NCBI GenBank assembly: GCA_029227215.1
Contig: JAQXZM010000006.1
Span: 1-37,977, forward strand
DNA length: 37,977 nucleotides
Direction: 5' to 3'
DNA from: Bifidobacteriaceae bacterium
GTDB lineage: Bacteria; Actinomycetota; Actinomycetes; Actinomycetales; Bifidobacteriaceae
A program made the translations under genes and the position numbers. A model generated the notes under the pieces. The model did not search any database, had not been told where the DNA came from, and saw only the letters and a list, made by a program, of their open reading frames with translations. Positions within the stretch are counted from its first letter, which is position 1; the number at the start of each line of letters is the position of its first letter. Below are positions 4,483-31,850 of the stretch, piece after piece.

Positions 4483-4624
4483 GCCCCCAGTCTACGAGCC
4501 GCGCCCCGCCACCGCGCCGGTGGGGAAAGATGTCGATAGGGAAGAGGATGGGTGAAGGAATGAGGAAGGGGAGAGGCAGCGTGAAAATACGGAAAATCGG
4601 CGCGGCACGCCGATGTGGTGCCGA

Positions 4625-4653
4625 TTGGACAATTGTGGAAAATACGTTATTAT
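4625..4653 (+). promoter_or_regulatory. promoter of tRNA-Thr
   Basis: A -35 like TTGGAC (4625-4630) and a -10 like TATTAT (4648-4653) are separated by 17 bases, in an AT-rich patch 38 bases before the tRNA. This is one of the best sigma-70-type promoters in the window. Confidence 0.6.
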
Positions 4654-4691
4654 TCTTTAACTGTGCATGACGCTCACAAGGCGTTGAGCAT

Positions 4692-4764
4692 GCCACTTTA
4701 GCTCAGTAGGTAGAGCGGCTCACTCGTAATGAGCAGGTCGGCAGTTCGATTCTGCCAAGTGGCT
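4692..4764 (+). tRNA. tRNA-Thr (anticodon CGU)
   Basis: A full cloverleaf can be drawn. The acceptor stem GCCACTT pairs with AAGTGGC, the D arm is AGCTC...GAGC, the anticodon stem CTCAC/... carries loop bases with CGT as anticodon, and the T arm reads GGCAG-TTCGATT-CTGCC. It is 73 bases long and CCA is not encoded. CGU reads ACG threonine codons. Confidence 0.93.
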
Positions 4765-4769
4765 CCCCG

Positions 4770-4800
4770 AAATCCCGGCCGCAAGACCGGGATTTTTCTT
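4770..4800 (+). terminator. rho-independent terminator after tRNA-Thr
   Basis: Nine-base arms AAATCCCGG (4770-4778) and CCGGGATTT (4787-4795) close an 8-base loop and run straight into TTTTTCTTTC. It lies six bases after the tRNA. Confidence 0.85.
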
Positions 4801-4861
4801 TCGGTGCGGCGATGGAATCCGCTGGTGGAACCCACCGGCATTCCTCCGCCGTGTCGGAATC

Positions 4862-4942
4862 GCGCGAGTGGCGGAATTGGTAGACGCGCAGGATTTAGGT
4901 TCCTGTGTCTTTGACGTGAGGGTTCACGTCCCTTCTCGCGCA
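4862..4942 (+). tRNA. tRNA-Leu (anticodon UAG)
   Basis: The acceptor stem GCGCGAG pairs with CTCGCGC and the discriminator base is A. The anticodon stem CAGGA/TCCTG encloses loop TTTAGGT, giving anticodon TAG (reads CUN, mainly CUA). A long variable arm and the T arm GGG-TTCACGT-CCC follow, as expected for a class II leucine tRNA. It is 81 bases long, without encoded CCA. Confidence 0.92.
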
Positions 4943-4966
4943 CAATCATGATTTTTCCCATCCTTC

Positions 4967-4999
4967 CATCCTCCCCATCCTCCCCATCCTCCCCATCCT
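4967..4999 (+). repeat. 9-bp tandem repeat CCATCCTCC
   Basis: Three perfect copies of CCATCCTCC plus degenerate flanking copies, starting about 25 bases after tRNA-Leu. It is a simple-sequence tract in non-coding DNA. Confidence 0.7.
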
Positions 5000-5012
5000 T
5001 CCTATCTTCTCG

Positions 5013-5280
5013 GTCTCCGACCTCCCTTTTCGGCGCCCGATTCATGCGGCGCCGAAGACGGAGGCTAGAGTGCCGAAAAATGGGCTTCAAACGTCCGTCT
5101 TCGGCGCCGGATTGCTGGGGCGCCGATGGCGGCAGTCTGGGCCTCGAAAAAAGGTGTTGTAACGTCCGTAATCGGCGCCCAACTGGGGAGGCGCCGATGG
5201 CGGAGGTTAGACCACCTCCCAATGGGTCTGTAACGTCCGTCTTCGGCGCCGGAATAGGGAGGCGCCGATTGTGGAGGGTT
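5013..5280. repeat. 71-bp tandem palindromic repeat array, four units
   Basis: TCGGCGCC recurs at 5030, 5101, 5172 and 5243, exactly 71 bases apart each time. In every unit it is followed ten bases later by its inverse GGCGCCGA. In three units a second inverted pair, CCG...CGG, flanks the core across 3-base gaps, so each unit can fold as a hairpin with a small internal loop. The phrase AACGTCCGT precedes the core in units 2-4. It lies between tRNA-Leu and manC and fills the 384-base gap. No coding potential is supported, because 71 is not a multiple of three and all frames contain stops. Confidence 0.85.
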
Positions 5281-5326
5281 GGTGGGATGTATCCGTGGGC
5301 GAACCATTGTGTGAGAAGATAGCGGT

Positions 5327-6454
5327 ATGAGTGGCGAAAGCATTGACAATTTCTACGCGATCATTCCCGCGGGCGGCGTCGGGTCCCGCCTGTGGCCCAT
5401 CAGCCGCAAGGACCGGCCGAAGTTCCTCTACGACTTCCTCGGCACCGGCAGCACGCTCATCCAATCGACCTACCTGCGCCTGGTGGCGCTCACGGGCGAG
5501 GGGCATGTGGTGGTGAGCACCGGCGAACACCATGTGGACGCCGTGCGCGAGCAAATCCCGGCGCTCAAGGAGTCCGACATCTTCGCCGAGCCGGTGGGCC
5601 GTGATTCCACTGCGGCGATTGCGCTCGCCACCGCCATCCTCGCGCGCCGCCACGGCGACGACATCGTGGTCGGCTCGTTCGCCGCGGACCATGTGATCCG
5701 CGACCAGCGCGCCTTCGCCGAATCCGTGCGCCAGGCGGTCGCCGCCGCGCGCGCCGGCTATGTGTGCACGATCGGCATCGCGGCATCCCGGCCGTCCACC
5801 GCGTTCGGCTACATCCAGCAGGGCGAGCCGCTCGGCGCCAAGGTGCCGGACGCCCCCGACGCCTACACGGTGCGCAAATTCGTGGAGAAGCCGGATGCCG
5901 CCACCGCCCAGGCCTACCTGCTCACCGGCGAATACCGGTGGAACGCTGGCATGTTCGTGATGCGCGCCAGCACGCTGCTCGAACGCCTCAAGGCCTACAA
6001 ACCCGTGATGGCAGGCCAGATCGCACGCATCGCGGATGCGTGGGACACCCCGCGCCGCGCCGAGGTGATGGCGAGCGAATGGGCGGGCATCGAGAAGATC
6101 GCCTTTGATTATTCCATCGCGGAACCATTGGCTGCCGAAGGCGGCGTGGCGATGGTGCCCGGCGGATTCGGCTGGGACGACATCGGCGATTTCAACTCCC
6201 TCGCTGCGCTGCTGCCCAGCCGCAACGCGCAGAACATCAAGCTTCTGGGCGATGATGACAGCCTCGTGCAGCTCGACAGCGCCGGCGACGTGGTGGTGGC
6301 GGACGGCGGCCGCACGATCGCGTTGCTCGGCGTGAGCGACATGGTGGTCGTCGACACCCCGGACGCCCTGCTCGTCGCGCCACGCGCCCGCAGCCAGGAG
6401 GTCAAGGACATGGTCAAGAAGCTCGGCCAGATCGGCCGCGACGACATCCTGTGA
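5327..6454 (+). CDS. manC: mannose-1-phosphate guanylyltransferase
   Basis: 375 residues. The enzyme makes GDP-mannose from mannose-1-phosphate and GTP in the cytoplasm, for glycan synthesis. The N-terminal nucleotide-binding loop reads PAGGVGSRLWPISRKDRPK at residues about 14-32. FVEKPD near 185, WNAGMFV near 206 and GFGWDDIGDFNSL near 280 are typical of the family. The length fits the short, single-domain form without the phosphomannose isomerase half. It starts with ATG at 5327; the ribosome-binding site is weak (GAGAAG). It stands between the 71-bp repeat array and pgi and shows no obvious operon partner. A related hexose-1-phosphate nucleotidyltransferase specificity cannot be excluded. 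Confidence 0.9.
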   Translation: MSGESIDNFYAIIPAGGVGSRLWPISRKDRPKFLYDFLGTGSTLIQSTYLRLVALTGEGHVVVSTGEHHVDAVREQIPALKESDIFAEPVGRDSTAAIALATAILARRHGDDIVVGSFAADHVIRDQRAFAESVRQAVAAARAGYVCTIGIAASRPSTAFGYIQQGEPLGAKVPDAPDAYTVRKFVEKPDAATAQAYLLTGEYRWNAGMFVMRASTLLERLKAYKPVMAGQIARIADAWDTPRRAEVMASEWAGIEKIAFDYSIAEPLAAEGGVAMVPGGFGWDDIGDFNSLAALLPSRNAQNIKLLGDDDSLVQLDSAGDVVVADGGRTIALLGVSDMVVVDTPDALLVAPRARSQEVKDMVKKLGQIGRDDIL

Positions 6455-11175: not shown

Positions 11176-13340
<2,165 letters not shown>

Positions 13341-31440: not shown

Positions 31441-31743
31441 GCGGGCGCGTCGGGTCGTCGGTAGGTCCAAGTCCAGTGCCCCCGACTCGTTTACGGATAC
31501 GACCGTCACCCGCGCAGTCCGCTCGTCCAGAACAGAACCCCCCGGCACACCTACGGGTGCAGCCATCATCTGCGCAGTCCACTTCGGCTTGAGCGGAACG
31601 CCCGGACACGCCTGTGGGCGCAATCGGCAATCCGACTGGCGTGGCGATTTCGCAATGGACGCCCCGTCGCGTTGACGGATGCAATCGGCAATCCGACTGG
31701 CGTGGCGATTTCGCCATGAACGCCCCGTCACGCCTGCTGGTGC
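31441..31743. repeat. 60-61-bp degenerate tandem repeat array, about five units
   Basis: Units begin near 31441, 31501, 31561, 31622 and 31683. The last two are nearly identical (both start AATCGGCAATCCGACTGGCG and share CGATTTCGC and GCCCCGTC). Units 2 and 3 share GCGCAGTCC. Each ends in a GGRTGC/GGGTGC/GGGCGC phrase. The last units contain an inverted pair GGCGA/TCGCC and GGCGT/ACGCC. The array lies upstream of ansP and downstream of the small membrane protein gene. It is not coding. Confidence 0.75.
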
Positions 31744-31850
31744 AACGTCTGCCGGGATTGGCGGCGATGTCTTCGGCTTAATCCGCTTTCGATGCAGTGG
31801 CAATGCCCTTGGATTTGAAAAGCCTTTGAAGTAATCGATAGTCGCGATGA

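Follow-up and report, generated by a model that had tools for sequence, protein, structure and literature searches.

A Pseudoscardovia array upstream of manC as one copy of a dispersed, near-palindromic 71-bp repeat family

The array between tRNA-Leu and manC

The window analysed here—the whole stretch of 37,977 nucleotides at positions 1 to 37,977 of contig JAQXZM010000006.1, assembly GCA_029227215.1—comes from a Bifidobacteriaceae bacterium whose genome (G000; 2.0 Mb in 144 contigs, 83% complete) we compared with those of its congeners Pseudoscardovia suis (G001), G002 and G003. Between two tRNA genes and a manC-like gene, it carries a short intergenic array with the following features.

4692-4766, + strand: tRNA-Thr (CGT), upstream neighbour
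4862-4943, + strand: tRNA-Leu (TAG), upstream neighbour
5017-5280, + strand: whole array including outer half-sites, limits approximate; 24 bits with the P. suis polarity profile
5030-5055, no strand: core palindrome 1, TCGGCGCC-N10-GGCGCCGA
5056-5100, no strand: 45-nt inter-core stretch, a second, alternating imperfect palindrome (CGGAnGnTA ... TAACGTCCG)
5101-5126, no strand: core palindrome 2, with an exact outer CCG/CGG pair (5095-5132)
5127-5171, no strand: 45-nt inter-core stretch
5172-5197, no strand: core palindrome 3, with an exact outer CCG/CGG pair (5166-5203)
5198-5242, no strand: 45-nt inter-core stretch
5243-5268, no strand: core palindrome 4
5310-5321, + strand: TGTGAGAAGATA, immediately 5' of the manC start, near-identical in three array-less congeners
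5327-6454, + strand: manC-like mannose-1-phosphate guanylyltransferase gene, 375 aa

A preliminary description of this DNA had reported four cores with a 71-bp period, and this was borne out: they start at 5030, 5101, 5172 and 5243, exactly 71 bp apart, and the core pattern has 4 matches in the window versus 0 in 100 dinucleotide-preserving shuffles. The reported placement also holds, with tRNA-Leu ending at 4943 and the manC-like gene, whose product matches TIGR01479 (E=1.8e-74, under the curated cut-off of that model), starting at 5327; about 40 bp separate the array from TGTGAGAAGATA. An outer CCG/CGG pair had been claimed in three units, but it is exact in two of the four (5101 and 5172, no mismatch), the 5030 unit having CCC at its left and the 5243 unit TGG at its right, one mismatch each. 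Tandem Repeats Finder at default score did not report the four-unit array, presumably because of unit divergence outside the arms, and Rfam 15 at gathering score gave no match to it, the only matches in the window being three tRNAs and a TPP riboswitch (aptamer RF00059, 57.6 bits, 13228-13335 on the minus strand). Two other simple repeats are present: a CCCATCCTC microsatellite (9 bp x 4.9 copies, 4957-4999) between tRNA-Leu and the array, and a 61-bp tandem repeat (2.5 copies, 80% match) at 31596-31745 of the window.

A dispersed family of palindromic arrays

The preliminary description had proposed looking for the core elsewhere in the genome, and blastn with the array gave 61 own-genome matches at E<=0.001, spread over many contigs. 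The array is one copy of a dispersed repeat family lying between Pseudoscardovia genes. With the manC-locus array included, there are 26 array places in G000, each with 1-6 units (78 units, chosen by eye from a mismatch scan). The family is described by the near-palindrome TAACSTCCG-NNN-TCGGCG-N14-CGCCGA-NNN-CGGASGTTA, which forms 71-bp arrays in about 25 intergenic places in G000 and 23 in P. suis, its conserved part being the imperfect palindrome TAACGTCCG-NNN-TCGGCGCC-N10-GGCGCCGA-NNN-CGGACGTTA. The spacing is highly regular, since 46 of the 51 inter-core stretches in G000 are exactly 45 nt long, counting neighbours 69-72 bp apart and excluding one 122-bp gap. Information content averages 1.57 bits in G000 and 1.91 in P. 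suis over the TCGGCG arms, 0.61 and 0.83 bits over the NNN (mostly TCT, CAA, CCA or TAA, on either side), and 0.40 and 0.43 bits over the loop. With arms far more conserved than the loop, something may recognise the arms. There are two subtypes: AACGTCC with GCC/GGC, found in most G000 units and on P. suis contig 5, and AACCTCC with GAC/GTC, found in most of P. suis, in Bifidobacterium boum, in G003 and in one G000 array (C108:41487).

The arrays are intergenic in both species. Using a codon-based gene call, we placed 20 of 23 arrays in G000 between called genes (one was at a contig edge and two overlapped a called ORF), and 22 of 23 in P. suis (the other being at a stretch edge), the orientations of neighbouring genes being much like those around intergenic gaps of 150 bp or more in general. 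Several arrays adjoin the 3' ends of DUF5648 genes (L021, L022 and L069), two of these genes being confirmed and the others assigned by similar sequence, which suggests that a DUF5648 gene and its array are sometimes copied together. Three G000 contigs (C115, C31 and C81; L015, L027 and L030 are involved) end in or beside arrays, so assemblies may be affected by the repeats; judging from the gene order in P. suis, the ends of C115 and C31 are probably one dnaB intergenic region.

The family has a narrow distribution. Among 59 genomes, G000 included, blastn matches were found in G000, in P. suis and weakly in G003, the remaining 56 giving none. A scan with CCGN3TCGGCGN14CGCCGAN3CGG, allowing up to two mismatches, gave 68 matches in G000, 84 in P. 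suis, five in G003 and two in G002, of which two in G003 and perhaps one in G002 are convincing, a reversed control pattern giving 0-1 matches. When 84,980 species were scanned, 17 stretches were retrieved: 13 from P. suis DSM 24744, two from B. boum LMG 10736, and two lone matches in an Actinomadura and an actinomycete MAG, which have no surrounding array and look like chance. Across 189 Bifidobacteriaceae genomes only the Pseudoscardovia genomes and B. boum stand out. The matches listed for G118 (16 matches), G175 and G189-G191 have two mismatches and are out of register, and were taken as chance or other repeats. Phages and plasmids gave no match for the repeat family, and viral contigs gave six isolated hits to the pattern. 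In B. boum, the arrays form clusters over 14 kb around sortase and pilin genes. The sortase there shares 94% identity with a sortase on G000 contig 75, within a sortase/pilin island (L053/L054, L131) whose sequence matches at 93% identity over 2.4 kb between the two, a likeness for which assembly contamination is a possible source. This homology stops at L054:5492 and the B. boum array starts at 5494, there being no array at that place on contig 75. The repeats of B. boum thus adjoin horizontally shared DNA.

Turnover, possible mobility and replication polarity

None of the three congeners (P. suis, G002 and G003) carries the array at the manC site, even though their manC genes share 82-85% identity with that of G000. 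In P. suis an unrelated insert, bounded by inverted copies of ~20 bp, precedes manC, and compared with G000 and P. suis, G002 and G003 have the tRNA-Thr/tRNA-Leu pair in inverted orientation. The preliminary description had regarded absence from close relatives, with no effect on flanking genes, as the mark of a neutral duplication. The first part stands, with manC and the upstream TGTGAGAAGAT intact in the three array-less congeners, but the repeats form a genome-wide family and are no one-off duplication. The array at the manC locus is probably neutral for tRNA-Leu and manC.

Positions also turn over at other loci. In the M20-peptidase intergenic region, G000 and P. suis have arrays of different subtype that flank a conserved non-coding segment on opposite sides, and the site of each array is empty in the other species. 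The L018 array was not found in P. suis or G002 (in G003 only ~300 bp of this region precede a contig end), and neither G002 nor G003 gave a counterpart of the recG array of P. suis. Some places are shared, since G000 and P. suis have units in common in the dnaB intergenic region, as do G000 and G003 downstream of nth; these could also mean function. Local multiplication is seen in P. suis L049, where blocks of several units recur 354-565 bp apart, at identities as high as 1.00, the units at 5182 and 5536 being identical, and unit pairs reaching 83% identity are more numerous within loci (14) than between loci (3).

For the copying of units to new loci, a RAYT transposase was considered, but our search for its domain (Y1_Tnp, PF01797) found none in G000, an assembly 83% complete, and among G000-G003 and B. 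boum a match in one of the five, P. suis. That gene, paired with a TnpB-type gene, is the tnpA of an IS605 element. Mobilisation by a RAYT was therefore rejected, as none accompanies the repeats and the sole PF01797 match is this tnpA. The IS605-type element (tnpA and tnpB; L040 2500-7300) has an array on either side, and the downstream flanks of these two P. suis arrays are duplicated. Since neither a mobilising enzyme nor a clean target duplication was found, the mobility of the repeats can only be inferred.

The arrays of P. suis have an unusual polarity. They are strongly G/T-skewed, with an absolute GT-AC of 0.21-0.46 in 23 arrays and 0.064 in other intergenic DNA on the same strand, and the sign of the skew is constant along contig domains. 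Of 17 stretches, 16 show a polarity that matches the fourfold-site T-A skew, taken to mark the leading strand (p=2.7e-4), L102 being the exception, and the match extends to L092 and L095 even though most genes there run the opposite way. Stem substitutions on the G/T strand are likewise asymmetric (C>T 42 versus G>A 13). Because the left and right halves of the unit have different consensus bases, polarity is partly built into the unit, and what is seen in P. suis is compatible alike with mutation bias, oriented insertion or selection. In G000, array strand composition corresponds to flank GC skew in 18 of 26 cases and agreement with replication polarity is found in 16 of 23 arrays, which is not significant (p=0.09; 11 of 17 when arrays of stronger polarity are taken), which leaves P. 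suis as the one species in which the effect is shown. A tentative proposal, with the odds clearly against it, is that the palindromic repeat is polar and that its arrays are inserted, or retained, in a single orientation with respect to the replication fork, the G/T-rich strand always leading. It would be either a RAYT-less, non-autonomous class copied via a single-stranded lagging-strand template, or a set of fork-orienting chromosomal sites. IS608-like elements, which use the lagging-strand template according to the sections of PMC6006769 drawn on here, are a precedent for replication-linked insertion. If the polarity in P. suis holds, it offers a test of how small repeats that have no transposase spread.

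Alternative explanations and known repeat systems

The explanation that we favour, with a probability of about 0.66, is that the array upstream of manC is a lineage-specific insertion of a dispersed, non-autonomous, near-palindromic Pseudoscardovia repeat that spreads and turns over in the manner of a small selfish element and does not serve its neighbours. Its building block is a half-site of ~20 bp, TAACSTCCG-YNW-TCGGCG. Two half-sites, placed head-to-head around N14 (two species-specific bases, N10 and two bases), give an imperfect palindrome of ~56 bp, and palindromes set every 71 bp create the second palindrome between cores. Arrays may gain multiples of 71 bp through slippage or unequal recombination, and enzyme-mediated copying or recombination, possibly on a lagging-strand template, may seed new loci. 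Block duplication would thereby be combined with dispersal by a perhaps replication-linked route.

It is unlikely that the arrays are binding platforms on which a DNA-binding protein acting as a dimer, with a role in the nucleoid, segregation or replication, reads inverted pairs of half-sites, the 71-bp period and orientation being functional. Such a role would fit the fixed spacing, the conservation of half-site bases but not of loop and spacer, the independent variation of the two halves, as expected for double-stranded recognition, and the agreement of P. suis polarity with the leading strand. However, neither copy number—84 and 68 matches in two species and one or two convincing ones in each of the other two congeners—nor places are conserved, as the manC site illustrates, and 71 bp would not be a whole number of helical turns.

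We consider it very unlikely that the arrays are transcribed hairpins that terminate, stabilise or process tRNA-Leu or other transcripts. The preliminary description had predicted that a transcript would fold into a string of hairpins, and folding is indeed possible, the array region folding far better than shuffles (z -7.4); moreover, no terminator-like site was found at 4600-5450, although in P. suis a hairpin followed by TTTTG, identified by eye, stands directly after tRNA-Leu. However, base-pairing carries no sign of selection. The 76 G000 units and 62 distinct P. suis units show no compensatory change at variable stem pairs, which means that individual pairs of the hairpin are not maintained, and selection on an RNA hairpin was rejected; the few nearly invariant stem pairs that exceed shuffles do so via single diverged units. 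An apparent G-U excess in P. suis is in line with sides that vary independently at this base composition, as at pair -8/33 (CG 18, TA 5, TG 25, CA 7), for which the expectation was computed by hand from the margins. The symmetry of the units would be better explained by half-site copies read as double-stranded DNA, or by shuffled halves. Shuffles reproduce the fold advantage of the G/T strand, no T-run follows the stems of the four-unit array, and neighbouring genes show no preference for convergence (1 of 23 arrays in G000, 5 of 23 in P. suis).

A strictly local tandem duplication, neutral and not part of any family, would account for the empty manC site in the congeners, but is hardly credible, since the unit and its 71-bp period recur at about 25 further loci and in other species. 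There is next to no chance that the arrays are restriction-modification targets or protected sites at GGCGCC, as had been suggested: this word, which occurs 43 times in the window, is on both arms in 4 of 4 units at the manC locus, but in 20 of 76 units in G000, 3 of 66 in P. suis and 0 of 7 in B. boum, the other subtype having GGCGAC/GTCGCC.

The favoured reading, a dispersed repeat with its own turnover, defines an apparently undescribed repeat family within a family of gut bacteria. We found no description of Pseudoscardovia 71-bp repeats in the literature searched (open-licence papers only), and we count this REP-like dispersed family as new. Dispersed palindromic repeats are an ordinary kind of thing; what sets this family apart is its regular arrays and, in one species, its unusual replication polarity. 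Array length may differ among strains, which would make it a typing marker. The mycobacterial interspersed repetitive units (MIRU) are also actinobacterial intergenic tandem arrays, with a roughly similar unit length and tens of loci; by description only, the Pseudoscardovia arrays resemble them in these respects, and differ in having alternating palindromes and a subtype structure.

The likeness to REP sequences and REPINs is closer. As set out in the sections of Bertels and Rainey 2011 (PMC3116915) used here, those are short, extragenic, dispersed inverted doublets that can form hairpins, occur in tandem clusters and have a variable spacer between conserved ends, and Pseudoscardovia units are likewise inverted, hairpin-forming doublets. 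However, no RAYT was found with them, the GTAG foot is absent (the consensus here being TAACSTCCG...CGGASGTTA), and the compensatory changes that those sections give as common in REPINs were not seen in our units. The 71 bp that in the same source separate the two inverted 16-mers of one REPIN in P. fluorescens GI doublets are a numeric coincidence, since 71 bp is here the spacing of successive palindromes. The CGTC repeats, on the portions of PMC3733652 (2013) consulted, are similarly palindromic, mostly intergenic and without a dedicated transposase, with CGTC or CCTC outside the stem, comparable to AACGTCC/AACCTCC in Pseudoscardovia units; the terms Bifidobacter and Actinobacteria occur 0 times in that paper. 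The CGTC repeats have stems of 8-9 bp with A-T at the first and second positions, loops of 4-5 nt and rare clustering, whereas Pseudoscardovia units have TCGGCG arms, a 10-nt loop and a G+C-rich stem, and regular arrays are the rule.
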